In this document: positions 2,659 through 51,234 of the stretch, one piece after another | Position numbering within the stretch: the first letter of the stretch is position 1 | How the letters are laid out: every line of letters begins with the position of its first letter | Assembly (NCBI RefSeq): GCF_025698545.1 | Contig: NC_068577.1 | Span: forward strand, 2,389,501 to 2,453,500 | Direction of reading: 5' to 3' | Source: Gossypium raimondii | Lineage: Eukaryota; Streptophyta; Magnoliopsida; Malvales; Malvaceae | DNA: 64,000 nt | Translations under genes and position numbers: made by a program | Notes under the pieces: generated by a model | What the model saw: the letters and a program-made list of their open reading frames with translations, nothing else | Told to the model about the DNA's origin: nothing | The model's database searches: none

Positions 2659-3163
2659 ATGGTAACCATCAAATCTCCATTGCCTCTCATCCTTTGCTGC
2701 TACCTCTTGGTATCTTTCGTCTTCTTCCCACATGGAGCACTCTCTCGTCAACTACAGGGGGAAGGTAAAAATGTATTCAATTTTCTGTATGTATTTTAAT
2801 CATTTTCATTTCTTTTTTTTAAAACCCTTTACAAACTCATTAAGGAAGCCTTGTCCTGGTTTATGTGTATGATGTCCATTGCATTGAATTGCAGGTGGTG
2901 GCAATAAACGAAGCAAAGCGGACGTAAAAAGAAGTACATCACGATCAGCACCATCTTGGGTTGGCCAGGATTCACATCCACCACCGTCTAGCCAGGTTTC
3001 AAGGACAAGTTCAAGTTCAAGTCAATCTACGGTCGTGGAGTATTCTCGTCAGGATTCCAACAGCCCCACAGGCCCGGGATGGAATTGCCAAACCACAACT
3101 ACTAGTAATGGTTACGCGAGATCGTGTTCGAAGACCACTTATCAATCCTCCACCAGCCCATAA
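2659..3163 (+). CDS. Small secreted peptide precursor, SRSAPSWVG family, copy 1
   Basis: Two exons are proposed: 2659-2764 and 2895-3163, with a GT-AG intron of phase 1, giving 124 aa. Residues 1-29 form a clear signal peptide (hydrophobic LPLILCCYLLVSFVFF, then HGALS). A basic stretch (KADVKR, 43-48) precedes the conserved block STSRSAPSWVGQDSHPPP (49-66). The tail is Ser/Thr-rich with only two cysteines. The copy at 10704-11106 has the same exon structure, signal peptide, basic dipeptide and core, and even the leader before the ATG is similar (ATTAGCAGA-AAGCAA). I do not recognise the family. The architecture of signal peptide, variable pro-region, dibasic site and short conserved Ser/Pro block resembles plant peptide-hormone precursors. 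A SCOOP-like (S-x-S) relationship is possible but weak. Function is unknown. Confidence 0.7.
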
Positions 3164-3228
3164 AGTTTATGTTTCGTTCTGAGATAAAGCTTGGTGTGTA
3201 TTCTGTTGTTGTTTGGTATGTTTCGCCC

Positions 3229-3260
3229 ATACCAGCCAAAATGATATTCATGGCTGGTAT
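3229..3260 (+). other. Perfect hairpin in the 3' region of the 2659 gene
   Basis: ATACCAGCCA (3229-3238) and TGGCTGGTAT (3251-3260) are perfect complements: a 10-bp stem with a 12-base loop, about 65 bases after the stop codon. An AATAAA-like stretch (gaaataaatg) follows at about 3280, so the hairpin probably lies in the 3' UTR. Confidence 0.6.
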
Positions 3261-3263
3261 ATT

Positions 3264-4870
3264 AACTGTGTACTACGAATGAAATAAATGATAAAAGAAG
3301 GATATATAATAAAGTTAAACCTTAATCTTTTTTTTATCAAATTAGGGGTCTTCATAATTTGGTTAAAACTGAATTAACTAATCGAACTGATTTAATTAGG
3401 TTAATCGGTTCGTGATCGAATTTAGTTCGATTAGAAATCGGTTAATAATTTTTGAGATTTCAATTATCGATTAATACGGTTCTGAATTAAGTAATATATT
3501 ATATATAATATATTTTTATATTAACAATGCATGTTTTTAAAGATTTTAAAAGCCTCAAGTTTAGTATGACTTGAGGAAACCTTGAGTTTACATTTAAAAA
3601 TAACCCAAATTTCTTTGATTGCTTAAATATATATTGATTGTCAACTCAAAGATAAAGTTTTGTAATATATGTTCTCTTTAAATAAATAATATATTGAGAC
3701 GTACGTTTAGAAGTTCACCTTTTAATTGGTAGAATAATAATTGCAGTTTTTAATTTTTATATTTTTATTAATTCGACCCTAGTTCTATATAAAAATCATA
3801 AAAATTTAAATTTATTTTAAAAATAGAAACTTCTATATAAAATTTCTAGAAAAATAAAATCTCAAAAATGTTGTTGAAGAATTAATACGTATGGAAAAAA
3901 ATTATCATTCAATAGAATCCAATAATAAATTAAAAACAAAACAAAACCAAAAAAAAAGGTTAGATCATTGCATGCTTCCTCAACGTTTTACAAAACTAAA
4001 TTAGTAATATTTTCAAGTCAGGTTCCATGCCCTTGAAGAACATCAAGAATTGATAGTACAGAGGCTTGTGAAATCGATTTTGATGTCATTCTTTTAGCAA
4101 AACATATCACAAATTTTCTTTTTCAAACTCAATTCAGAATTTCATTTCATTTAAATTATTTTTCAAAACAGAAATTGTAAAAACAAATTATATTCTAGTT
4201 TCTTTTCTTTTCTTATAACGAAAAAAATATGTCAAGAAACAAAAAGTTAAAAATAGAACCAATAATTTTGCTTAATATATTTTTTTATTTTTCTATGTTT
4301 TATTTAAAAGAATGGGCATTAGATATTACCATACAAATAATACAAAGAAAAAAATTAGAGGATTTAAAATAATTCTCCTCATTTTCTCCCTTTATCTATT
4401 TTTGAAATTTTCATTTACTTTTATTTTATTTTAATTTTAATTTTAAAATGTTCTAATTTTTTAAAAAATTCAATTTTCATCATTTTATACTAAAGAATAA
4501 AATTATTATTATACCAATTAAAAGGTGTTGCTCAATGATCAGGTGACAAAGAAAAACATTTGAAAAGCTTAATGATCAAATTATAATTTTTCTTAAACTA
4601 AATGACCAAAAAATTTTACCCATAATTTAGTGACCAATAGCGTAACTTACTCAAAAAATTAATCACAATTGAGCTTTGACACTCGTAATTAATTTTAAAA
4701 ATTTATACGTTTAATTTATTTTATTTTTTAATATTTTCTTAAAAGTACGTGCCACTTTACAATGAATGAAATAACTTTAATAAATTTTGTTACGAAAAAC
4801 AATTACATAAGTCATGGAGTATCCTCTTTCGATTGGTCCAACTATTTATTGTATTTAGACTTACATCATA
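3264..4870. other. Intergenic, AT-rich; fragment of an AATCGGTT-type repeat
   Basis: 3355-3505 holds repeated TTAATCGGTT / GATCGAATT / TAGTTCGATTA phrases on both strands, resembling degenerate inverted-repeat elements in plant genomes. The rest is homopolymer-rich AT sequence without coding potential. Confidence 0.45.
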
Positions 4871-4956
4871 GAGAGCATATGCTGCTATATATATCGAAAA
4901 TCTTGAGAATAGGGCTTCAATAAAATTTACTGTCAACATCGGTAGCAACCAAGTCA

Positions 4957-5330
4957 ATGACTGTTCATTTAGCTTTCCTTTTCCTGGTGTTTGCTTCTCT
5001 TGTAGCCCTTCATGAATGTACGTGTACTCAATTACAATTTACACAGTTGTTTTTCTTCTAATTGTTGATATACCCTTTTGATGTTTCATTTTGATTTGAT
5101 CAGGCACCAATGACGATGAGCTTGATCGGAGCATACCAACAGGCAACGAAATAATACTAGGACCATGCAGTCATTCAACATGCGGTGTAGAATCAGCATC
5201 GGAGAACGACAGCATATTCCGAAATTGTTGGTGCTGTTTATTACTAAAATCACATCTTTGTTATACCTATAGAATTGTCTGCGAAAACAATTGCGCACCC
5301 GGACCACCTCCTGATCTTGCAATTCCTTGA
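4957..5330 (+). CDS. ESF1-like cysteine-rich secreted peptide, copy A
   Basis: Exons 4957-5017 and 5104-5330 (GT-AG intron, phase 1) give 95 aa. Residues 1-18 are a signal peptide (AFLFLVFASLVAL). The mature part has eight core cysteines at about 42, 47, 62, 64, 65, 73, 80 and 84, including the CWCC signature, and ends in APGPPPDLAIP. The pattern fits the EMBRYO SURROUNDING FACTOR 1-like family, in which Arabidopsis ESF1 peptides are made in the central cell or endosperm and act in early suspensor development; a role for this copy is inference. In the other two copies translation starts at an ATG six codons further upstream. Here that ATG has changed (TCGGTAGCA), so the next in-frame ATG is the start. 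A TATATATA box lies near 4885. The alternative is a divergent cysteine-rich peptide outside ESF1. Confidence 0.72.
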
Positions 5331-7846
5331 CTGGATCACCTTGCTTTTGCAAGGCTGAGATGACCCTCTAGTTGTTGAAACCAACATGTCACTTGTTTCC
5401 AATAATCATGAATAAGAAGTGGCCAAAATAAATTTTATTATTCGATTGTGGTATCCATCCTAAGGCTCTAGCTTAGAAATTTATATGGGTAATTACAGTT
5501 ACCAAAATATTAAATACTCTTCTAACCATAAATACATGAAAATATTAGCATTTTATCCCTGCTAAATAATATTTTTGTCCCTTCCAAAATCCTATAAATA
5601 TGAGGCATTTTACTAAAAACAAATCTTCTTCTACTCTCTCTCTCTCATTCTTTCTGAAACTTTAGAATTTTTCTTAAATTGCATTAGAGAAAATTTAGTC
5701 TAGGAGTTTAGGTTTCAAGGAGAACCGTTTGTGACTCCTTCAAACTTTCCTGTGAATTTATCCTAGTCCAATTGAGTTCTACCTTCCTTATTTGAGTGTA
5801 CAAATATCGAAAAACTGTGTTAACCTTGAAAAACTACAACAAGCAGGGTAAATTCATTTTTAAGACAGTAGTTCTTCCACGGTACAGTAATACTTTATTT
5901 ATTTCCAGCAGACATTTGGTATAATGAAAAGTTATCACTTACGAAAAAACTTAATTAGTTAAATGTTATTTCAACTTTGGATATGCAAAAATTGATTCAC
6001 AAGTTGCATATCTTCATAATCTTAAATCAATATGAAAGTTGTTTTTCAAATGTGTTCACGTAATGTATTAAATCAAAATATGAGAAAAACAGTAAACACA
6101 ACTAGCATGACTTGAACCCAAGTCACATTTAAGGTAATGAACACATTTGACCATCAAACCATCATATAAAATTCTAATATTAAATATTTAATTTATATAT
6201 TTATTAACAATAAAATTATTAAAAAAATTAAAATATATAAATATTATCTTTTATTTATAATGATAATTTTTTAAAATAACATCACATTTTTTTTTAAAAG
6301 TGTTGAATGTACCAAAAATATAATTATAACTTTTTCAAAATTTTAATCAATATTTTTTAATATACGACAAACGTTATAAAGTAACTTTTCACACCTCCAT
6401 AATAAACCACGTTTCAATTATGAGATGAAAAAGCACCAAACACCCTGCTTGAATGCATCCACGTGCTTTTCAGAAATTGAGATAACTTCAATCTGATCCT
6501 TCAAACTTCATATATTTAATTTCATCCCTTATTAAGTTTTAATTGCTTCGATTCAATCCCAATTTAATTCTAATTGCACTCAATATATATATATATATTT
6601 ATTTATTTATTTATTTATTTATATGTTTATATATGATTTTTAATTTGATTATTTAACTTTATACTTTACCATTAATTTAATATACTTGATTTATTTTATA
6701 AAAATAAAATAGAATTTTTAATAAAATGGATTATTTTAAAAGATATTTATTAAAAATATAAAAACATAATTTATAATTTTTAGAACCCTAAAACAAGATC
6801 TAATATAAGCTGGAAGCCTAAAAATAATAGCCAAATACATGCATAAATCAAGAATCAAATAAATTATAGTCTTTAATCTTTCATTGAATCGCATATTCAA
6901 ATATTAATCCAACCTATATTTATAACATAAACTTAAAGGGTTTCAATCAATATTTTCAACATGCAAAATTGATGGACAAAATATTTATTAGTCGATACAC
7001 CAAATCAATATTTTAAATCCTTAAAATTCTAAAACAAATCGAAACCTAAATAATTTAACATAAATCCAAAAGATTTGGCATGTATGATAAGAAGAACACT
7101 GAATCCAAATATCAAGTTCATAAAATTTAAAAAAAAACGAATAAAACCCAAAAATAATAGAGAATCAATTCGTTCTAAATGATTTAACATGACGAGACTC
7201 GGATGCCACTTGTTAGAACCGTAAAAACAAGATCTAATATAAACTTAAAATTATAAACCAGAATCTATCATGTCAAATCATTAAGAATAAATCAAAAATA
7301 AAACTAGATGCAGAAACATACTTGAATTGATCGATTTCTTGAAATCTACGAATCTTGGGGTTTTGATATTTCAAATTAGTACACAAGTAATCTAGAGAAT
7401 GTGGCTCTCTTTTTTCTAAAGATGGGATATTAGAAAAGTTACGTTGTGTGTAATTTGGAAACCATAACCCTAATATATAATTTTGGCACATTAGCCCTAA
7501 TTTTTAATCAACCCATCATCAATTAGAAATTAGTTACTAGAGTTATTTGACCCATACTTTATTTAATAATTAAAGCCCAACAAACATTAAACAAATTAGA
7601 TCCCTTTTAATTTGGGCTAACATATTATGATGGCAAATAATAACATGTTATATAGATGTTTATATTTTCCAACAATTTTATGTTGCAATCTTTTAAATAA
7701 TAATATTATTTGTAGAGTTTTATAAAAACTTTTAAGAAATAATTAAATATAATTAAATTAATACATATAATTAACCCTAAACCCGAAATTTATTTAAGAA
7801 TATACTTAATCAACCAACCTATACATTGTACGGGATAATCAAACTA

Positions 7847-7884
<38 letters not shown>

Positions 7885-8410
7885 TGTGCAATGAACGAGA
7901 CAGAATTTTGCAGTCTTATAAATTTATCAGAAATTTCAATTATATTTAAATTATTATATATTTATATAAATATATTTAAATTATCAAAATTGAATAATAT
8001 ATTAATATTTATTCTTTGTCATATTAAAAAATCACCTTTATTGTATAATTCAACATCGCGTGCATGGCGTTAAGGAAAAGGCAGTCCGTCAACAGCGTAT
8101 CTCTGTGTTTTTATACGTGGAAGTCAGCCAATTCCCACTAGTTGTCCCTGCATGCATTACCGTATTCAAGGCTCCCCTTGGCAAATTCAAGCCAATCAAT
8201 TTTTGGGATAAAAATCATTTGTAGCCCTCCCATTTTGATTCAACAACATGCATGTTTTCAATTATTTTTATTCATAAGGATTTTAATATTGTTTTTAAAA
8301 ATTATTATATAATCATATTTTCGTTAATTCATTAACGGGTGTTGATTAGTATGGAGAGGTGATTAAAATTCTTGTTAAACATCCGTTTGGTATAAATTCA
8401 AACTGTGTTA
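5331..8410. other. Intergenic, AT-rich, with a (TA)n microsatellite
   Basis: About 34 bp of (TA)n is at 7848-7881, and a TTTA run at 6595-6620. A patch at 6105-6175 (tgacttgaacccaagtcaca) resembles tRNA- or retroelement-derived debris. No coding sequence is supported: the 60-88 codon ORFs have no recognisable features. Confidence 0.5.
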
Positions 8411-8418
8411 CTCTTATC

Positions 8419-9020
8419 TAGATCTAATCATGGGTCGAACTATTGGGAGAGCTTGGGCAAAAATATAAGCTCGAAAAATGGGCTTGGAAAATAATAATGC
8501 CCGTTTTCTAAATGGACTAAGCCTCGGGTATTATTTTTTTGGATTGGGCCCGCTCCAAATAAATTGTTTTATTGTTGTTTTACTGCTATTTTGTTGTCAT
8601 TTTTTTGTTGTTTTGCTAACATTTCGCTATTGTATTGTTACTATTTTGTTATTATTGTTTGGATATTGTATAATTCTTATTTTATTATTAATTTTGTTAC
8701 TATTTTAAAAGCACTTGCTTGTTAAGTTGCAACTATCTTAGTGTTATTTAAGTATAAAGAATTTTTTTAAAATGTATTTTTAATTTGTTGAGAAACATTT
8801 ATTTTACTATTTTTAGTGTATTTGACGTATTTTATTTTTTAAATTAGTTTTTATATAAAAATAATTTAAAAAAATTAATATGGGCGAGTTGAGTTAAGCT
8901 CGGGTTTAGCATTTTAATCTGAGCCAAGCTTGGGCAGAAATTTAAGCTCATTTTTTCGGCCGAGCCCTAGCTTAAAATTTTGTATCGGCACAATCCGAAT
9001 ACGACACATGATCAAGTCTA
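8419..9020. mobile_element. Degenerate Mutator-type non-autonomous element
   Basis: The left end (tagatctaatcatgggtcg) and the right end read in reverse (tagacttgatcatgtgtcg) match over most of 19 bases. Flanking octamers CTCTTATC (8411-8418) and CTCCCATC (9021-9028) agree at 6 of 8 positions, as expected of an old duplication. GC-richer ends (gagcttgggc, gcctcggg, gagcccta) enclose an AT-rich centre, like the better preserved element at 32037-32517. Confidence 0.55.
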
Positions 9021-9028
9021 CTCCCATC

Positions 9029-10060
9029 CTACCCTAATACTATATCTAAAAAAAACTTTAAATATTGTTTTAATTGACTTTTTTTTTATAGATTCACCAC
9101 TTCTATTCTTATTCTTTTTAACCCGAAAAAAAAAAGTCCAACCCATCTTGTGTTTTTAGTGAATAACAGAAACGCGACTAGCGTGACTCATATTCAGATC
9201 ACACTTGGAGCGATAAACACTACCATAAGTTAAATGCACAATTTTCTATCCAACCCATCTCTTTTTCTTTTTTTCTTTTTTTGATGAAAAATAATACAAA
9301 ATTACATGAGATCAAATGCCCAAACCTATCCGAACCATCTTTTTAATTGATGCAATATCGATTTGTCCTAACTAAACTTAAAGTCCTGTAGTTTTTGTTT
9401 TATACATAGAAACCTAAAAGTCTTACAATATTGACAAATAAAATGAACCAACCCAAATTTTGGGTTGATTGAGATAATTAATTGAAGGCATAGTCAAGGG
9501 CGTAATTAAGGCCACTGAATTTTATAAGTGTTTTAATATTACATATTATCATTCAAGAAAAGTGTATATTTATATCTAACCCCTAAATTTTAAGACTTTC
9601 TGAAGTGCATGCCTTATAATATTTAAGGTATATTTAACGTTTGATCCCTTAATTTTCTTTTAATTTTGATCCATTTTAAATATTTAGCTTGAAATTATAA
9701 ATTTTGATAACACTTCTGGTCTAGATCTCATTTATTAATTTTAATTTAATTATCTCTATTTTACTTTAATAAATCAAGCAAACATATTCATGTTAACTGG
9801 TAAAATAACATTACATAATTTTATGCATAATTAAGTTAAATTTTTTAACATAAGGTATTAATTCTTATTAAATTTTCTACACACGTAATGTGATGACACT
9901 AATTTATTAGTTAATAATGTCATTATTATTATTTGAATAGTTAAAGAGGACACAAGATTAATCCCAACCATCCCAAATCAGGCTTAATAAAAAAAATAGG
10001 TAAACTACACTCAAGGTTATTAAATTATTAGTAGGTTTACAATTTGATCATTTGACTTTA
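9029..10060. other. Intergenic, AT-rich, nothing recognised
   Basis: There are no ORFs with family features. Segments such as 9180-9240 resemble scattered repeat sequence, but no borders could be drawn. Confidence 0.4.
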
Positions 10061-10066
10061 AAAAGT

Positions 10067-10490
10067 TACAAAATAGTCATTGAATTACCTGAGAGTTTTC
10101 ATTTAAGCCATTGAACTATTCAAAAGTTTTTATTTAAGTCACTGGGATATTAAGTTTTTTTTTTTTTTAGTTCAGCCAGCGAGCTCCAAATGACGATTCG
10201 ACGATGGTATGGTGGATCAATACCCATTGACGAGAAAAAGAATATTCCTTAAATCCAAGTTGATCTAACGATCAGTGTTGAAGATCGGGGAAGAAAACTA
10301 TTTCAATTTTGGTTTGCAGATTCGTGACATTTAAAGTTGCTTCATGAGAAAAATTGAATTGTAGAAGAGAATGAGAATGAGAGCTTTCGATTGTTGCAGA
10401 GGTTGCAAGTAGAGAATGTCATACAACATCGATTTTAACAACTCAATAACTTAAATTAAAATTTTTAAATAATTTAATAACTATTTTATA
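10067..10490. repeat. Fold-back repeat with long imperfect inverted arms
   Basis: The left arm (about 10067-10145: 'aaaatagtcattgaattacc', 'catttaagccattgaac') resembles the reverse complement of the right arm (about 10424-10490: 'aaatagttattaaattattt', 'aatttaagttattgag'). A GC-richer centre lies between them. This looks like an inverted-repeat DNA element. No target duplication was established. Confidence 0.5.
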
Positions 10491-10703
10491 ATTTTTTAAA
10501 AAAATTACGTGATAAAAACGTAAATTGAATTTCATATTTTTGTCACCAAAAAGTTAAACTAAAAATATTCTAAATTTGAAGTACCTTTAATCTTGACCCC
10601 TTATATAGCCTCCTTGGCATTGTATTTATAAGAAGGACGTCTGCCAAATGATTAAAAAGGAGACACCCACGCAAGTTACAAGATATTAGCAGATAAGCAA
10701 CTT

Positions 10704-11106
10704 ATGGAAACCAAACCTTCATTGCTTCTTATCCTCTACTGCTTTCTCTTGGCATCGTTTCTCTTCTTCCCACATGGAGCAGACTCTCGTAAACTACTGC
10801 AGGGGGAAGAAGGTATTATTTAAGCTTTATAATTCAATCATTTTCAGTATAAATAAATATAATATCTTATATCCAATTCTTGGATTTGCAGAAGATGGCA
10901 ATGGACCAAAAAAAGCGGGAGTAAGAAGAAGTCCTTCAAGATCAGCACCATCTTGGGTAGGCCATGATTCTCCTCCCAATTCTCCTCCCTCGCCGCCTTC
11001 ACAGCAGTCATTTGAAAATCAAGTGCGCAGTGAAGCGGAACAAGAAGCCCAACGTGAAGCTTGCGAGTATTCCCGTAGTTATACTAATGCTTATTGTTCT
11101 CCTTAA
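10704..11106 (+). CDS. Small secreted peptide precursor, SRSAPSWVG family, copy 2
   Basis: Exons 10704-10812 and 10892-11106 (GT-AG, phase 1) give 107 aa. Residues 1-27 are a signal peptide (SLLLILYCFLLASFLFF). A dibasic RR (48-49) precedes the conserved block SPSRSAPSWVGHDSPPNSPP (50-69). The tail is acidic/Gln-rich (SEAEQEAQREACEYSRSYTN) and ends YCSP. Compared with copy 1 (2659-3163), the signal peptide and core are strongly conserved and the tail is not, which points to the core as the functional unit. The Pro-rich SPPNSPPSPP part could carry hydroxyproline and arabinose. A TATTTATAAG box is near 10628. The gene forms a unit with the EG45 pseudogene downstream on the other strand, and the same unit is duplicated at 13.8-14.9 kb. 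Product function is unknown. Confidence 0.75.
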
Positions 11107-11783: not shown

Positions 11784-12403
11784 ATGCATATCCACAAGGT
11801 AGATGTCATATTCCTGTAGGCAATACTTCAAAGCCTGCATTAGAAGAAAAAAAAAATTGATGAGCTACAGCATACAGTTGGAGACTAGAGCAACGGCAAT
11901 AATATTTCAATTTTCCCGGCATCAGGATTGGCTATGGCAGCGAAAGCTTCTTGGGATAAATCAATGGTGCCTTGACAACCAGATGGGCAATAATCAACTA
12001 TTTTCACAACCATATAATCCTGTCCTCTACATGGATTAGGGTCACCTTGGTTGGTTGCTCCTCTGCCTTCAACTTTGTAATTTCTCCCGCAAGCTGATCC
12101 CCCGTCCCAAAAAGCATCACTGGCAGCAGCAATCATCACTCCATCATTTTGGTATCCATTACAAGCAGATGCTGCAATTCCAACCCCCAAAATATTCATT
12201 AGTCATCATACAATCAGCTTGTCGCTCTTAGATACATAGCTATTGAAGTATTTTAAAGAATGAAAGTGAGTGCAAAGGGGGGCTTACGAACTTATGGAGG
12301 AGTGTAAAAGGTGGCAGTCCCTGTATCTGCAACAACTTCCCAGGAAGGAGAAGGTAAGGATAAATGCAAGGGCTATGCAGAAAAGGATGCTAAGTTCCCT
12401 CAT
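11784..12403 (-). pseudogene. EG45-like / plant natriuretic peptide pseudogene
   Basis: This is the paralogue of the intact gene at 14277-14900. Exon 1 (12403-12288) still has the signal-peptide start, but it carries a one-base insertion near 12345 relative to the intact copy and a TAC to TAA change turning the Tyr of TPPY into a stop. Exon 2 (from 12171) is open and nearly complete: SACNGYQNDGVMIAAASDAF, then CGRNYKV, VDYCPSGCQGTIDLSQEAFA and DAGKIE. It runs through the expected donor to a stop at 11885. The 3' exon equivalent (about 11830-11784) is still alignable. The clean exon 2 means the loss may be recent; use of a downstream ATG in exon 2 would give a protein without a signal peptide. 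Confidence 0.85.
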
Positions 12404-14276: not shown

Positions 14277-14900
14277 TCAGACCCTACGTTGCAAAACATG
14301 GATAAGTTACAATCTAAAGTTGGAGAAACACCTGAATGCGTAAATTGATTATGAGATTAACATACTGATGAAAGGAAATTTTAATTTTCCCGGCATCTGG
14401 ATCGGCTATGGAAGCGAAAGCTTCTTGCGATAAATCAATGGTGCCTTCACAACCAGATGGGCAATAATCAACTACTTTCACAACCACATACTTCTTTCCT
14501 CTACATGGATGAGGGGATTGGTTGGTTGCCCCTGTGCATTTAACTTTGTATTTTCTCCCGCAAGCTGCTCCATCGTCCCAAATTGCATCACTGGCAGCAG
14601 CAATCATCACCCCATCCTTTTGGTATCCGTTACAAGCAGACGCTGCAATTTTTCAACCTCAAAATATCAACTAGTAATCATACATTAATTTAGCCAGCTA
14701 TTCAGGTTAAATGCATCCGAAATTTTAGGTCTGCATAACCATTGGACTACTGCAAAGAGTAAAAATTAAGGCAAAGGGGGCTTACGAACGTATGGGGGAG
14801 TGTAGAAGGTGGCAGTCCCTGTGTGTGCAACAACTTCCCTCAAGGTGAAGCTGAGCATAAATGCAATGGCTATGCACAAAAGGATGCTAAGCTTCGCCAT
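14277..14900 (-). CDS. EG45-like domain protein / plant natriuretic peptide
   Basis: Three exons (14900-14786, 14642-14366, 14283-14277), GT-AG throughout, give 132 aa. Residues 1-25 are a signal peptide ending VVA. The mature part is a single double-psi beta-barrel domain as in expansin domain 1: GTATFYTPPYVPSACNG, then DGVMIAAASDAIW, CGRKYKVKC, VVKVVDYCPSGCEGTIDLSQ and DPDAGKI, ending FHQV. Six cysteines (42, 66, 74, 85, 99, 103) match the family's three disulfides. There is no C-terminal carbohydrate-binding domain, so it is not a full expansin. Family members are apoplastic and are linked to water/ion balance and stress or pathogen responses. The tiny last coding exon (7 bases) completes the canonical Q-V-stop. 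A TATTTAAAG box lies just upstream (about 14978). It is the surviving copy of a duplicated pair. Confidence 0.88.
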
Positions 14901-21244: not shown

Positions 21245-21657
21245 TTATGGAAATGGAAGATCAGGAGGTGGTCCGAGGGGGCAATTCTTTTCGCAATCGG
21301 CTCTCACAGTATAACACTCTGATTTTCTTGATATGCAGCACCAACAGCTGCGGAATATGCCATCGCCGGAAGCTGGCCCCGATGTAGGACAAGGTCTATG
21401 ATATGGTCCTAGTGTTATTTTGCTGCCTGGGTCAAGTTCATTGCCATGGATGCTGCTGCTTCTACTACCTGCAATTCAAATGAAATTTGCCATTAAAGAA
21501 AGAATCATTTCAATGTATGAAAAGTTGATAAAATATGAGAAGATCAAACCAGAGTAAACTAAAAATCAGTATACGCACATTCATGAAAAGCTGGAAGAGA
21601 GGTGAAGAGCAGTAAAAGGAAGGCCAAACGAATAGCCATGAACTTGGTTGCTACCAT
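21245..21657 (-). CDS. ESF1-like cysteine-rich secreted peptide, copy B (lacks one core Cys)
   Basis: Exons 21657-21579 and 21468-21245 (GT-AG, phase 1) give 100 aa. A signal peptide (about 1-24) is followed by the same mature domain as its inverted twin at 22186-22601. The exon 2 sequences are identical except next to the splice site, where the encoded residues read CS rather than SC, and at one place near 21400. There CTGC has become T, so the Cys-Ser of GPCSHR is replaced by a single Tyr (GPYHR) with the frame kept. This removes the first of the eight core cysteines, leaving an odd seven plus the N-terminal Cys next to the cleavage region. The peptide may fold with an altered disulfide set or be non-functional. 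Its promoter is unrelated to that of the twin. Confidence 0.68.
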
Positions 21658-22185: not shown

Positions 22186-22601
22186 ATGGTAGCAACCAAG
22201 CTCATGGCTACTCGTTTGGCCTTCCTTTTACTGCTCTTCTCCTCTCTTCCAGCTTTTCATGAAAGTGCGTATACTGATTTTTAGTTTACCCTGGTTTGAT
22301 CTTCTCATATTTTATCAACTTTTCATACATTGAAATGATTCTTTCTTTAATGGCAAATTTCATTTGAATTGCAGGTTGTAGAAGCAGCAGCATCCATGGC
22401 AATGAACTTGACCCAGGCAGCAAAATAACACTAGGACCATGCAGTCATAGACCTTGTCCTACATCGGGGCCAGCTTCCGGCGATGGCATATTCCGCAGCT
22501 GTTGGTGCTGCATATCAAGAAAATCAGAGTGTTATACTGTGAGAGCCGATTGCGAAAAGAATTGCCCCCTCGGACCACCTCCTGATCTTCCATTTCCATA
22601 A
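22186..22601 (+). CDS. ESF1-like cysteine-rich secreted peptide, copy C
   Basis: Exons 22186-22264 and 22375-22601 (GT-AG, phase 1) give 101 aa. The signal peptide covers about residues 1-24 (LAFLLLLFSSLPAF). All eight core cysteines are present (49, 54, 69, 71, 72, 79, 86, 90) with the CWCC signature and a GPPPDLPFP end. A TATA-rich stretch (gaatatatata) ends about 45 bases before the ATG. The protein should be a small apoplastic signal of the ESF1-like type; the family link rests on the cysteine spacing, not on a search. This is the best preserved of the three copies (also 4957-5330 and 21245-21657). Confidence 0.75.
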
Positions 22602-23122: not shown

Positions 23123-26100
23123 CTATGAGTCCGAGATGGGTTTCGTTTTGAAGAACTTTGCTACAGCCAGGTAAAGATTTTCCTCCTCAAAGGGCTTTGA
23201 GACGTATCCGTCCATCCCACATTTCAGGCACTCATCATAGGTGGCGTGAATTACATCAGCTGTCATGGCTAATATCGGGATATGCCACTCACCAGTCCTG
23301 ATAGACCCTTCTTCAGTCCCTCTGTTCATCTGTTCATTTGCCTGACTCTCCATCATTCGAATTCGACGAGTTGCCTCAAACCTGAAATAATAGTCCATGA
23401 TATTAAAATTCACACCCTATCTTTACAAAATGATTAAAATTCATATATATTTGTATAAGATTTAAAGGAGGATTATCTGACAAAATCACAAGCTAACCAT
23501 GGGCAACATTTAAATAATGCACTACAACAAAATAATGATTATCAAGTTCTCACTCAAATGAGAAATTTGGTATCTAGTGGAGACAAAACCATAAGGCTAA
23601 TCAAAGGAATTTGGTCCACAAATGAAGTGTAACTGTGAAGAAATAATGTGCCAACAGCCATGTGATGTTTAGACCGGACCGGACCATAGATATGTCTAAA
23701 AACAACATACAGACTTTGCTTTCTTTTTCCTGTATTTGGTGTTTAGATTGTCAACTGCCCAATGTTAAATATATGGTATACATACCCGTCCATTTCGGGC
23801 ATCTGAATATCCATGAAGCAAGCGTCAAAACTGTGTGGAAGTTGAAGCAATTTAAGTGCAGCTTTTCCACTTTCAGCACATTCCACGGCAGCTCCAAACT
23901 TTTTCAATGCGCCAGCAGCAACTCTCCGGTTTACCATATTGTCATCAACTACTAATATTTTCTTACCACAAAGAAGACTCCCAAGGACAGATGATCCATT
24001 CAGCATGCCTCTTCCAGGCTGCCTCTTCTTCCCTGTCCCAAGCACCTGCTGAAGACATGCAGCCACCATACTTGCCCTCAAAGGTTTCATAATTGTAGTA
24101 TCTGCAAAACCTGCTGCCCTTGCTTTCTCGAGTTCAGCATTAGTAATATTTGTCGCAAGAAGAATCATCTTTGGCGACTTAAACACGTGTCCGTTTTGCT
24201 GCCTGTCCAACGTTCGTAAGCTCAAACCGCCATCCTCACCAGAAAGCCATGAATCCTTCTCAACAAGAACTATATCCGGTTGAGTTTTACTTCTGCGACG
24301 TTCAAAGATATAATTCAACAAAGTTAACATCATAAGATGAATAGAAAGCACAAATGGTCTTTTTTTTCCCAGTGATCATAACAAAGGCATCAGAAAAGGT
24401 ACTGAAGAAACTACAAATTGTGTTAAAAATGAGTAATTGTTGACAAGATCTTGTCAAATGTGATTAAATCATCAACCAAACATAGGGCAAATTCCCCAAA
24501 TGCAAACTATAGTTTTACTGAATTTACTATCTCTCAAATATGATAATTCTAAACTAAAACGTACCCGCATGAAGAACCATTTTTACCACAAGCAGAAGCA
24601 GCTATTTTGACACTATTCGCAAATTCAACCAGCATGCCAAGCCTCTTCAAGTGGTACCGAGTTACAGCAGCTCTAACTGGTTTTCCGTCAACTACCACAG
24701 CTTTCAATCCTCTGAAACCAGATGGAAGATCTTCAGCATTGGGTTTTTTTGTATCACTAAAGGAAGCTCTTTTACACCTCCCAAAGACTGTGGTGAATGA
24801 GAATGTGCTTCCAACTTGTGGTCTGCTGATGAAGCTTATGTGACCACCCATTAGCTCAACCAAACACTTAGTAATGCTCAGGCCTATGCCAGTCCCACCA
24901 TAATTTCTAGAGGTTGAGCTATCCGCCTGCATAAAGGGCATGAAAACCCTGTCCTGGGCAATCAAAGGGATCCCAATGCCAGTATCTTCCACAGATACCA
25001 TCAAAGTGACACTCTGAGAAGCTTCATCTGCAGCTTTCATTTTTACTGAGGCATCATATCGCAATTCTTCGTCGGCAACTAAATGCTTGAAGGAATCCCA
25101 ACTGTTCCGCTCATCAGCAGCTTCATAACCACTCAAGGTTTTAAACTGGCGAGCACCTGATACCAATGCATCTTCATCTGACCCTCCATTCAAACAAGTT
25201 TCAGCTTTAGGATCTTCCATAGGCTTCGGGTTTTCAGCTAGATGGACTTTAACAAATATGTGCCCCCGTTCTGTAAACTGTCAAACACTCATTTTTAAGT
25301 CATTATCAATTTATTAAATGAAATTTTATATACAATAATCAGTCAAATAGCAGAAACTAAACTCAATAATGCAATCTACTAATAAGATCAAAACTTCCAT
25401 CAATTAAGTAGATAGCAATCTACCTACAAAATTGGCAAAAGGAGAGAAGGTTGAGCACCCACTTACTTTAACAGAGTTCCCAACAAGATTCGTAATTATC
25501 TGTCTAAATCTCCCTGGATCCCCCATAACCATTTCAGGAACTTTATCAGAAACAAACACTGCCAGCTTCAGTTCCCAAACAATTACAACGAGTTTGAGTC
25601 ATTGTAATGTATCACAAGTAACACCATTTATTGACATCACCAACGCCACCAAGACATGGAAAGGAAAAGGGAAAAGAGAAGGCAAATTAGTTCAAGCATT
25701 ATAGGAACTGTCTAAAATGAAGAAGCATATTGAACAATGCACTGTGTTTTCTATTAATTTTATCCAGACTTACCTCAACACCTTTGTTTCTAGACTTCTC
25801 AGAAAATAAAGAGAGCACATCATCTAGGATAGACCGAAGGTCAAAGGGGACAGTTTCCAGCTCCAACTTTCCAGCTTCAATTTTAGCACGGTCAAGCACT
25901 TCATTTATCAATGTTATCAGTGCCTTTCCACACACTTGAGCAGTTTGAGCATAATCCCTTTGTGTTGAACTTAAATCAGTATCTAAAAGCAAAGCAAGCA
26001 TCCCTGCAACCATTCAAGATTTCATCAGAACATTGCTGATTAAAATTATTTGATGTCCTTGAATGTATATTTCACAAAGAAAACCTTAAGGAGCAATCTG

Positions 26101-28627
26101 GAACATACCAAGGATGCCATTCATGGGAGTCCTGATTTCATGAGAAACTGTTGCCAAAAACTGCAACAAGAACGCATCACAATTAGTTTTAGCTTGGAAG
26201 TGGGTGGTCAACCATGTGTTGATAGATATATCTTGAAATACATACCTGTGATTTGGCCACATCAGCAGCTTCTGCTCGAACCTTAAGCTCTTCCATTTCA
26301 TGGAAATCATCTTCAACTTTAACAATGTGTATTGCTGCACCATATAAGATATAGCCAACCAATAAGCAGATCACGAAGAATAAGAAGGCCGTGGTCAGCG
26401 CAGTCCATGATGTGGGTGCCTTCTGATGATATCTGCTCAGAAGGCCCAAATAGTAAGTGCTTGCAAAAATAAATGCAGTCATTCCATCAACCTTGTGAAT
26501 ATGTAGCCAGTTATACACTTACCTACATATCATCTGATGCTTCCTGAATGGATCTCCAAAATCAAGCTTGCTTTCATGCAATAAAGCCAGGTCACCATCT
26601 TGATTTTGGTGACCATACATGATCAAGTGATCAGAAGAATTAGTAATATCATATACATTCACTAGGATTGCCTGATTTCCAGCAAGTTGCCCAAGTAAAT
26701 TCTCCACAAGTGACTCCACATCAAATGCACCACCAAGGTATCTGTGTTTATTTAAAAGCTTTTTTATGCATAAGAAAATCTAAGATGCAAAAATAAAGAA
26801 GCGTAGTAACTGAAGCAATCCCCCTTGGGATGTATTTCTATCCATTGTAATAACTGGAAGTCTAGTTAGCCAGAAAAATAGTAGCACAAAGAAAATGTTA
26901 TGAATGTCAAACTCAAATTTACGGAGAAACTAGAAATGTCCAGTGCCAGGAACAAGTGATGTAAAGATGGTAAAGGTGCTTATGTGGCACCAACAGAAGT
27001 ACTGGCAACTGTATCTGGTCAAGGAGCACCAAATTGCTGGTGTTGATCACAATGAAACAATAAATGTCAGTGGAAGCAAAAATGCTGATATCAGCAGCAT
27101 AACCATGATTAGGTCATAAAGTAGCAAATACCCTAGAAATATATTGAGGTGGTCGTATGAGTCACTTTGGACCATCTGGTGTCAATGGTCTTGCTCTCCA
27201 GACTCTCGATAGGAAAAAGGAGATGAAGGTTTCTGATTGTCCACTAAATGAAGAATAGAATCTTTTCGGCTAACTTATATACGATCAAATAAACTTCAAC
27301 AGAAATCACATAAAAGTCTAAACCTTTTTCCCCTTGACATGTGCACTCTAATACAACTGCAGTTGCTATAGACTCCAAACTCTCATCATCAACACTCTCA
27401 AACTATCTAGTGCCAAATACATTCGCTAACTTTCAAAAGCAAAAGCTTAAAAGAAAATACCAAGCACAAAAAGGGTTTCAAACAAAAAAAAAACTTGGAT
27501 TTCCAATTAGAAAGACAAGCTGGAGTACTTACCCAGCAGTTGCTTCAATGCGCTCTTGCTCAGTAGGACTCGGTGGGAGCTTGGATTTGTAAACAGGGAA
27601 TGTCAACACAACACCAAGATGATGAGAGCCCAGTAACCTGAAGGGGCTAGTTAGGACAGCTTTCCCGGTAGCCCTAGCCCTTAATATGTTTTCTCGATCC
27701 TCCTGCACATTGGAACATGGATATTACCACTCCAATCTAATCCTGAACCAAATATCAGACCAAAGGTAAAGATAAAACTTATAAGCAGATTGTAGGTAAC
27801 AGCATACCTCCCCCGACATCATGTCAAGCGATTCGATGTAAGAAACAGTTTCTTGAGAGAAAATTACAGGGGCATATTCATCTCGAATAGGAGAAGGTTC
27901 CCTCTTCATTGTCTTTATTGTCCACCCATGCTGCCTCTCAAATTTCTCCCTCTCAGAATGAACTACTCTTTCCGCATAGGCCACCCCACTAAGCAATGGC
28001 CTCTCAAATGCTGTTCTAGCAGTGTACTCCGCAAAAGTCTCCTGCATTTCTTGCAAAGAACAAAAATAGCCCAAAGTGCACAATCAGAAACTCACACAAA
28101 AGATGAACAAGAAAAATATTTCACCATTGGATGTCAACATCAACCAAACTCAGATTTTCAGAGGCTATATGTCTAACGAAAAAACAACAAATGTAAAACT
28201 TTAAATTAAATAGAAATTTCAAAATATCAGGACTCCATAAATTCCACAGAAAAGAAGGAAAACAAGATCAAACTTCAGGAACAACCTGATCAATAGCAGA
28301 TGGATCCTTGTAGTAATGAAAAGTGGAGACAAGAATGGCCAGGGCATGAACATGGTTAACACTAACACTGAATTGATCCTGCAACATCCTTGCCCTTTGA
28401 TCACACATGGTACTCAACACCTCCTTCCTCCTTACTTTGTTGTCAGCATCCATCTTTTTGTAGATCCAAGTGCTGAGAAAAGCCATCACCATTACCCAAA
28501 GCAACAAAAATTTTGGTAACCAAGCCCTGTTAGCTTGAATAAATGTGTACCCTCTTTTGGTCCCCATTTGTTCATTCACTTTCACAGTCACTGAGTGGTG
28601 GTAGCTCTGTTGCAACTTAAGACCCAT
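23123..28627 (-). CDS. AHK4: Cytokinin receptor hybrid histidine kinase, CRE1/WOL/AHK4 type
   Basis: Eleven exons, all GT-AG: 28627-28286, 28041-27808, 27702-27533, 26741-26523, 26432-26246, 26160-26109, 26003-25774, 25565-25467, 25277-24565, 24292-23786, 23381-23123. They sum to 1003 codons plus stop with no frame break. Order: membrane segment about 40-56; extracellular (ER-lumenal) CHASE domain binding cytokinin, with D194, T210, L216 and T226 at the places I equate with D262, T278 (the wol site), L284 and T294 of AHK4; membrane segment 332-353; HisKA with phospho-acceptor H391 (SHEIRTPMNG); ATPase N box (N504/N508), DTGIGIP (609-615) and GGTGIGL (638-644); a degenerate receiver (about 700-830); and a true receiver with D865/D866, phospho-acceptor D910 and K980. 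It starts a phosphorelay to HPt proteins and B-type response regulators. The closest match is AHK4 rather than AHK2/3: it shares the KPISDS-like end and the short N-terminus. The ATG at 28627 is the first in frame after a stop at 28651-28649. Confidence 0.97.
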
Positions 28628-28665
28628 CAGCAAAAGAACAAGATCGGCTCAACTTGTTTCTCCAT
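28627..28665 (-). promoter_or_regulatory. Upstream ORF 2 overlapping the receptor start codon
   Basis: ATG at 28665 opens 12 codons (MEKQVEPILFFC). Its TGA shares its last base with the receptor ATG (TGATG). If transcribed in this leader, ribosomes terminating there sit exactly on the receptor start, an arrangement associated with reinitiation. Confidence 0.6.
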
Positions 28666-48836: not shown

Positions 48837-50481
48837 ATCTCATAGCTTACAGAAGTATTAAACCACTCGAACCTTTGTTTGTTGCTTCGAAAGATATTCC
48901 AAGTAAGAATCTTTTTCACCATCTTATATAGTTTATGGATTTGGTTTTTCTTTTTTTTTGTTAGCTTTTGTTTTGTGTTACTGATTTGAAGCTGCTGTTT
49001 TGCACTGTTGTGTTAAGCCTTTTTGAATTTTCAGCTTGATTTGGTTTCATCTTCTCTCTTTTTTTTAATGACTTTTAGAGTGATTTTGTTTGCATTTTGC
49101 TGCTATTAGTTTGTGAAAAATGGTTCTTTCATTCCACTGTTTCTGATAGAGATTTGGAGATGAAATTAACTTAACATGAATCTGATGAAGCACTTGAACA
49201 GACTTTTAGGGTTATGAAAAAAAAGCACCTTCTTAGGCAATTCTGAATAGCTTTCATCTGTTTCATGCATGTCAGCTGATTCCTCAAACCCTCATTTCTT
49301 TAGTATCTGAATTTGACACCTATTTGGTCATATATGAACAGCTATTTATACTTTAATCATGATTTTGAGCCAAAAAGTGAAACGAAAATAAAATTTGAGT
49401 GTGTTTGGTAAAGAAGGAAAAGTAGAAGGAAATGAAAATGAGAGAGATGGCTATTTCAGTGCATGAAACTTAATGAGAGAAAATTCGTGGGAAAAAAGTT
49501 ACCAAGCACACCAATACGAATCCTTACTTATTAGACAGCTAGTTCTACGATTAGCTTGAACCCATTGTATTAATGTAGCCTACAGGAAAATTCTAAATCC
49601 AGTTTCATTCAATGTCATGCTCTAGAAGGGAATGGATATCATGTCAATTTTGTTTCTTCCTTAATGTTTACTCTTTGCACCGTGATTGGTTCTCTTTTTT
49701 TTCAATTCCATTAGCTTGAAGATCAACAGTTTTGTCGCTCGTTGATCCGTTAGTGGATAATTGGATCCTTTTTGTCCTCATTTTTAGGATTTTCTCATTT
49801 CAAATAAGAGAAGTTGGAGATAAATCATAGATACCCTTCATCATGTTAGCCGGAAGTAAGACCTATTTACCATTGGTTAGCATTATGAACTTTTATGGCT
49901 GCATGATGCGTGTGATTGTTTAATGTTTACGGACTTGTATTTATGGAGATTATTACATGTATCACTTAGTTAAACCATACTGTCCATGTTTCCAAGGTTG
50001 GATTTTTTTTCTTCAAATGGAAGTTAGCATGCTCATAATGACGGATTACATATGACAAGCTTGAGAGGCCAGAATATACTGTTAAAATGATGTGTATCGC
50101 AAACACATCGGTTAAATCTTGAATTGCTTGTTGTCTTATAATCAAATTGGATTTTTCAACCAATTTGAATTGATGTTAAATTATGCATGTTACTCATGTC
50201 TATTAGTCCGCCGTGCTTGCCGTTAAATCCTGGATTGCTTATGGTTTTATGTTTGAGTTCGGTCTCTGCGCCTATTTCTATTTGATTTTACATTGAATGC
50301 TTAACATATAGTACGTGCATGACAACTTCGGGCAATTGCATCTTTCTTGCTCACTTAAACTTTAGCCAATGATTCATTTCTTTTGGTATGTGCAGGTGTT
50401 GAAGAGCTATATAATTAGTACTGCAGCAATCCGTACCGGGTATCAAAAGGAACAAGCACAAAACTTGCTGCTTTACCGAGA
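48837..50481 (+). other. 5' UTR with a leader intron of about 1.5 kb (48903-50395)
   Basis: Leader exon to 48902 (attccaa|GTAAGAATC), intron 48903-50395 ending 'tatgtgcag', then leader exon 50396-50481. The intron opens with a T-rich stretch (48940-49080), usual for plant leader introns, some of which raise expression. No ORF inside it looks real. Confidence 0.65.
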
Positions 50482-51234
50482 ATGACACTGCCGAATCTTG
50501 GGTTAGAATCTGAAAACGATTCCAAAGCAAGTAGCCAAGTGGCTTCCAACATATCTGCACAAGAGGCATCCACTGATCCCTCGAAGGATACCACAACCAC
50601 TACTTCATGCCTCTCGAATCCTGTAAAGGTTCAACCAGATCCAGGGTCTGTTTCCCTTGACCTGACTCTGCACTTCAGTGCCAATGATGCTGAGATGAAG
50701 GGTGCCACTGGTGAGACTATGGGGATCAACACTTTGTCAACACCGAGGGTTTTCTCTTGTAATTACTGCAGGCGCAAGTTCTATAGTTCACAAGCACTGG
50801 GTGGACACCAGAATGCTCACAAGAGGGAGAGAACAATGGCAAAGCGTGCGATGCGGATGGGGTTATTATCCGATAGGTATACAAGCTTAGCATCTCTGCC
50901 TCTCCATGGTTCGGCATTTCGGTCCCTTGGGGTCAAAGCTCATTCCGCTATGCACCAAGGAATGTTGCCATCATCCCAAAGACCTGTAGATACAAGAAGT
51001 GGAGCACGGTTCGATCAAGGGTGTTTCGGGATGCCGATATTCATGGAAGATGAGGAGGTAGACTTGTATTGGCCAGGGAGTTTCAGGCAGGTGAATGAAG
51101 AAAGAGTTGGGAGTAACCAAGCTATGGAATTGAGTCAAAATCCAACTCAAAGTTCAAATATAGGTTTTATAGCAATGGCAACACTACCAAGAGCAGATGC
51201 ATCATCTCAACTGGATCTCACTTTGAAGCTCTAA
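50482..51234 (+). CDS. ZFP4: C2H2 single-zinc-finger transcriptional repressor, ZFP4-type
   Basis: Single coding exon, 250 aa. One plant-type EPF finger at about 93-113 (CNYCRRKF, then QALGGHQNAH) with zinc ligands C93, C96, H109, H113 and the QALGGH DNA-contact motif. A basic stretch (KRERTMAKRAMR, 114-125) follows and may be the nuclear signal. There are two EAR-type repression motifs, LDLTL at 59-63 and LDLTLKL as the last seven residues. Further family blocks are SLGVKAHSA, ARFDQGCFG, FMEDEEVDLYWPGSFRQ. The order matches Arabidopsis ZFP4 (and relatives ZFP1/3/7), nuclear repressors tied to ABA/light and development; assignment to ZFP4 rather than ZFP3 is by remembered alignment. An ORF on the opposite strand at the 5' end is a shadow. 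Confidence 0.93.
   Translation: MTLPNLGLESENDSKASSQVASNISAQEASTDPSKDTTTTTSCLSNPVKVQPDPGSVSLDLTLHFSANDAEMKGATGETMGINTLSTPRVFSCNYCRRKFYSSQALGGHQNAHKRERTMAKRAMRMGLLSDRYTSLASLPLHGSAFRSLGVKAHSAMHQGMLPSSQRPVDTRSGARFDQGCFGMPIFMEDEEVDLYWPGSFRQVNEERVGSNQAMELSQNPTQSSNIGFIAMATLPRADASSQLDLTLKL

Follow-up and report, generated by a model that had tools for sequence, protein, structure and literature searches.

A young tandem array of genes for probably secreted small proteins with a shared SxS...WxG block in Gossypium raimondii

We analyzed a stretch of 64,000 nucleotides (nt) of Gossypium raimondii DNA (contig NC_068577.1, C13:2389501-2453500; hereafter the window), in which a first-pass annotation had proposed two small genes, here called genes 1 and 2, as members of an undescribed-looking family of secreted peptide precursors. 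Open reading frame (ORF) and splice models agree with it on two intact two-exon genes of 124 and 107 amino acids (aa), whose GT-AG introns are both in phase 1, and these are the last two copies (F and G) of a tandem array that has its other five members upstream of the window. Gene 2 has adjacent acceptors (10891 or 10894), and its product would therefore be 107 or 106 aa long. Signal peptides were judged by eye, from a hydrophobic run plus the -3/-1 rule; by this inspection they comprise aa 1-29 of gene 1, with cleavage probably after A-L-S, and aa 1-28 of gene 2. The parts of the two genes, in window positions, are:

2659..2764, + strand: gene 1 (array copy F), exon 1, signal peptide and RQLQGE (ORF/splice model)
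2765..2894, + strand: gene 1 intron, GT-AG, phase 1, 130 nt
2895..3163, + strand: gene 1 exon 2, with linker, block, tail and stop
2927..2965, + strand: gene 1 block KRSTSRSAPSWVG, with basic site, SxS and WxG
3083..3130, + strand: gene 1 tail module N-C-x12-C-S, also in copies B (twice), D and E outside the window
10704..10812, + strand: gene 2 (array copy G), exon 1, signal peptide and RKLLQGE
10813..10891, + strand: gene 2 intron, GT-AG, phase 1, 79 nt, NAGNAG acceptor
10892..11106, + strand: gene 2 exon 2, with linker, block, its own tail differing from those of the other copies, and stop
10924..10962, + strand: gene 2 block RRSPSRSAPSWVG

The description of the pair as small, putatively secreted precursors with a basic site ahead of a near-identical block (KRSTSRSAPSWVGQDS in gene 1, RRSPSRSAPSWVGHDS in gene 2) is supported. 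The two loci align over 345 nt with 68% identity (E = 4e-34), and the homology runs from the 5' leader through exon 1, the intron edges and exon 2 to just past the block, where it ends. The tails had been called unrelated, which is largely true of genes 1 and 2, as their forced tail alignment is saturated (proportion of synonymous differences, pS, 0.86), but the gene 1 tail does occur in copies B, D and E. The best tail-to-tail protein alignment of the two genes, around E-Y-S-R, had a shuffle p of 0.015, and the best DNA alignment a p of 0.125.

Mapping of 69.5 kb of upstream sequence plus the window placed seven copies on the + strand of C13 within about 43 kb, six of them intact and one 5'-truncated. 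The copies upstream of the window are:

C13:2357587-2359484, + strand: copy A
C13:2364748-2367166, + strand: copy B
C13, + strand: copy C, a 5'-truncated recent duplicate of copy A
C13:2376781-2379065, + strand: copy D
C13:2384602-2385071, + strand: copy E

The second exon and flank of copy C are 98.5% identical to copy A over 652 aligned bases, and a 6.5-kb segment with most of B is 90.7% identical to a segment with most of D. The intact copies encode proteins of 103-138 aa, and all six have a phase-1 intron just behind the hydrophobic N-terminus. Searches of the 750.8-Mb assembly (281 contigs) with gene 2, copy A and copy E found relatives in this one array only, besides chromosome-7 matches to the copy A tail; the next-best matches off the array had E values of at least 0.31. 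A TATA-like hexamer lies 80-129 bp upstream of each of the six ATGs, in AT-rich DNA and without a chance control, and the W-box counts (0-4 per 600 bp), also without a control, were not used as evidence.

The array is real, coding, young and tandem. Support for this, and for the reading as peptide precursors given below, comes from the shared phase-1 intron, from gaps that keep the frame and from the retention of block residues. Across all 15 pairs, each of the 21 internal gaps in the N-terminal part is 3 or 6 nt long, and in four selected pairs of full coding sequences each of the 10 internal gaps has a length divisible by three (EF, 12 and 3; BD, 3 and 102; BE, 42, 3 and 6; DE, 3, 57 and 6), although these counts come from non-independent gene pairs. 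The intron gaps of EF and BD include 1, 25, 20, 2, 5, 7, 46 and 11 nt. The motif common to the array is [KR][KR]-S-x-S-x-x-A-[PS]-S-W-x-G, part of a larger conserved block, G-N-x3-K-A-x-V-[KR][KR]-S-x-S-x2-A-x-S-W-x-G. S-x-S, A, S, W, G and the basic pair (KR, RK or RR) are kept in all six intact copies, and the G-N-x3-K-A-x-V directly before the basic pair is likewise invariant; the motif ends in GG in B, D and E only, and in a single G in A, F and G.

The first-pass annotation had seen conservation confined to signal and core as the hallmark of a processed peptide hormone. Between genes 1 and 2 only, the 9-aa core indeed has no nonsynonymous differences over 19.0 sites, compared with 20 over 102.8 in signal peptide plus linker, where synonymous divergence (dS) is 0.26. 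However, among five genes (A, B, E, F and G, with D excluded as a near-duplicate of B), the proportion of nonsynonymous differences (pN) in the core was 0.196, compared with 0.205 in signal plus linker (permutation p = 0.46). Because the five-gene core is not below signal plus linker, the argument from confined conservation fails, and the apparent confinement is an artefact of comparing two genes. A pattern is nevertheless left: invariant positions among the six genes make up 6 of 11 in S-x-S-x-x-A-x-S-W-x-G and 16 of 46 in signal plus linker. Comparison of copy E with copy F gave no significant excess of amino-acid change (p = 0.25 over 75 codons).

Our preferred reading, to which we give an even chance, is that genes 1 and 2 are part of a tandem array that is young and lineage-restricted and encodes secreted, probably cleaved precursors of signalling peptides. 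The proteins are probably secreted, to judge from their N-termini; a role in peptide signalling is our best guess from anatomy alone and could go either way. An array precursor would enter the secretory pathway via its hydrophobic N-terminus, and subtilase-type proteases would cut at the basic pair, near the R-[KQ]-[LP] that follows the signal peptide, or at both places, freeing a short Ser-rich SxS...WxG peptide; copy A might free a separate RALF-related cysteine peptide as well. A receptor at the cell surface may then perceive the freed peptide as part of stress or reproductive signalling. On the best reading, the array would work like a phytocytokine family such as SCOOP without necessarily belonging to SCOOP itself. 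In the available portions of the papers cited here, the large majority of PROSCOOPs are described as genes of two coding exons, of which the first holds the signal peptide and the second the motif (PMC9784617), and PROSCOOP anatomy includes a dibasic cleavage site, an internal motif and tandem arrays (PMC9784617, PMC8448819, PMC6382344); the SCOOP12 precursor is cut at RR (PMC8448819). All six intact copies match this anatomy, with the signal peptide in exon 1, the motif in exon 2 and internal, and a basic pair before it, within a tandem cluster. Some findings weigh against the signalling reading. The likeness of the core to known ligands is no better than that of shuffles, omega in the five genes is higher in the 11-aa core (0.86) than in signal plus linker (0.63), and part of the array is decaying, because copy C is 5'-truncated.

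The tails bear on the alternative that survives best, namely that the array is a divergent RALF-related (clade IV) branch in which the C-terminal cysteine module is the active part, retained by A and C but eroded in the other copies, and the SxS block is a prodomain; we think this unlikely. The tails of A and C do appear to hold a RALF-related cysteine module. In the genome search the copy A tail matched a chromosome-7 (C7) family at E 4.4e-6, and a reverse search with one C7 protein, which is free of the copy-A selection bias, returned A at E 0.004 and C at E 0.001, and also recovered 13 C7 places with an E value of 1 or less. A hidden Markov model (HMM) built from six C7 proteins gave copy A 61.5 bits, a score that leans towards A because the six were found using copy A as query. 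Both tails carry the C-G-R-G-x2-Y-x-S-C stretch found in most C7 proteins, together with the G-[IVT]-Y-x-R end of that family. The C7 proteins themselves look like RALF-related proteins of clade IV, a placement that follows our reading of the description of that clade in the available part of PMC5258720, according to which its members mostly lack YISY and RRxL and typically have a short or absent acidic region, a feature that also favors this alternative. When 11 proteins of the C7 type (ten C7, one C11) were scanned with Pfam, one C7 protein gave a sub-threshold RALF match (E 0.0057, 18.1 of 22 bits) and the other ten gave none. Moreover, R-[KQ]-[LP] follows the signal peptide in every intact array copy, and the tail of each contains two or more cysteines. 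However, the tails of B, D, E, F and G scored only -0.7 to 4.9 bits with the C7 HMM, within the range of 1200 shuffled tails (maximum 12.6 bits), and the window genes are without the module. Pfam RALF matched none of the six array proteins and missed the A tail when this was scanned alone, and YISY and RRxL were absent from the six array proteins by inspection, as they are from most of clade IV. The gene structures also differ, as in most C7 proteins listed a single exon covers everything from the signal peptide to the cysteine module, whereas the array genes have an intron, and the SxS block is absent from the C7 proteins.

Copies B, D, E and F have in common an N-C-x12-C-S tail module, doubled in B, and a 102-nt in-frame gap between B and D explains the one extra module. 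Common descent of these C-x12-C tails with the RALF-related module was considered but not supported, as the HMM scores lie within those of shuffles and the profile-profile probability was 0.3%. The array thus combines a constant front with exchangeable cysteine-bearing tails. As a separate observation, the RALF-related secreted proteins of chromosome 7 form two clusters, at about 10.32-10.63 Mb and 43.34-43.49 Mb; a search of the PDB by sequence with one of them found no match.

Next, the products could be secreted proteins without a signalling role (for example, antimicrobial or cell-wall proteins), or the array could be decaying and of little function. An omega of 0.51-0.86 across the tested regions, the truncation of copy C and the Ser-rich tails are consistent with this, but six copies have kept an intact frame with in-frame gaps only at dS up to 0.61, and the S, S, A, S, W and G positions are invariant, which makes it rather unlikely.

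It is improbable that the array represents true SCOOP homologues, a Malvaceae branch of a PROSCOOP family that predates the Brassicales. Malvales and Brassicales are close orders, the anatomy described above is shared and SxS is invariant in all six copies; however, SxS is a weak criterion for SCOOP because shuffled 14-mers of the same composition hold it in 37-84% of cases. The S-x-S pattern had been said to recall SCOOP only faintly, which understates the likeness in anatomy but fits the sequences, where likeness was undetectable: in 24 ungapped 13-mer comparisons of four published SCOOP peptides with the six cores, shuffle p ranged from 0.09 to 0.97. For SCOOP12 it was 0.15-0.55, and for four of the six cores a scrambled SCOOP12 scored higher than the authentic peptide. 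On the glycine-rich C-terminal end of the SCOOP motif (PMC7846792, in the part available) the evidence is mixed, the array having W-x-G at this place, with GG in three copies and a single G in the other three. Each of the six tails contains two or more cysteines, whereas PROSCOOPs are described as without cysteine (available part of PMC6382344). Array proteins measure 103-138 aa, compared with 72-117 aa for the first 14 Arabidopsis PROSCOOPs. The plant order differs as well: in the available part of the survey by Snoeck et al. (PMC11331138), in which 32 HMMs were run on 350 proteomes, PROSCOOPs were placed in Brassicales only, MIK2 was reported from Brassicales only, and the cacao kinase at the MIK2 locus was just 61% similar.

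Finally, a PIP/IDA-type SGPS peptide, suggested by the SAPSWVGH of gene 2 (S[GAV]PS, then a G-H end), by SAPS in two copies, by the arginine behind the signal peptide, as in PIP/PIPL and IDA/IDL, and by a shuffle p of 0.015 for StPIP1_1 against gene 2 (uncorrected, and lower than in any other of the 18 PIP tests or of the 60 comparisons in all), is very improbable, as S[GAV]PS is present in only two of the six blocks, so that copies A, B, D and E largely refute it, and as all six array models have an intron, unlike PIP and IDA genes, which are described as lacking introns and as carrying the motif at the C-terminus or close to it (available part of PMC4526919).

Because of these comparisons, the array family is not filed under SCOOP, PIP/IDA or RALF. 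The earlier statement that the core is not IDA, PIP or RALF holds at the family level, on the S[GAV]PS count and the intronless genes described for IDA and PIP, but the array, the tail modules in common and the RALF-related tail of A and C escaped it, the number of copies being out of its sight. The family libraries searched likewise gave no convincing match. Pfam gave no match for gene 1, gene 2 or copies A, D and E, and two implausible sub-threshold matches only for copy B; an NCBIfam scan of genes 1 and 2 gave chance matches only (best E 0.24), and a search of the PDB by sequence with gene 2 gave a single chance match (E 0.28). To detect possible microbial mimics, the gene 2 protein was also searched against bacterial and viral collections; none of the 134 and 22 pattern matches, respectively, was confirmed as a relative. 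The exact core strings of either gene were not printed in the literature searched. A literature search on PROSCOOP with cotton, cacao or Malvaceae had no PROSCOOP among the matches listed, and one on cotton phytocytokines or SCOOP had no title naming such a family among the matches listed. The family is new as far as the Pfam, NCBIfam and literature searches reach, and it may have orthologues elsewhere annotated as "uncharacterized protein".

The array is flanked by a receptor-kinase gene with leucine-rich repeats (LRRs) at about C13:2325.8-2328.7 kb, supported by Pfam kinase and LRR matches and presumably TMK-like, and by a gene for an AHK4/CRE1-type cytokinin receptor inside the window. The latter, a histidine kinase of several exons, lies at window positions of about 23123-28648 on the - strand and matches PF24896 (Receiver_CRE1). 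Reading frames that resemble parts of a long terminal repeat retrotransposon, judged by eye, lie upstream of the array at C13 ~2350.5-2353.9 kb. The window also contains a second family of small, cysteine-rich secreted proteins, with three copies at 5100-5330 (+ strand, signal exon at about 4957), 21245-21475 (- strand) and 22368-22601 (+ strand). The first matches Pfam ESF1 (embryo surrounding factor 1) above the cut-off (25.3 of 24.1 bits) and the third has a sub-threshold Meg match only; the second and third, 96% identical over 77 aa, make up an inverted pair with a spacing of about 0.9 kb. Two tandem double-psi beta-barrel genes (PF03330, 58 and 72 bits) lie at 11885-12202 and 14314-14652, both on the - strand, and we take them to be EG45/plant-natriuretic-peptide-like. 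A C2H2 zinc-finger ORF at 50419-51234 (+ strand) has a sub-threshold Pfam match (20.6 of 25 bits) and an LDLTLKL end.

A bolder version of the signalling reading, which we hold doubtful, is that an SxS-type phytocytokine family with swapped tails, represented by the array, evolved a second time and independently outside the Brassicales, and that copy A would be a chimeric prohormone with two ligand classes, SxS and RALF-related, behind one signal peptide. With an SxS family of SCOOP anatomy in a further rosid order, it could be tested whether SxS signalling is of greater age or arose more than once, and the exchange of tails, including a RALF-related one, would show how new plant peptide precursors are put together. 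If the peptides are inactive, the array remains a clean natural series for the birth and decay of small secreted genes.

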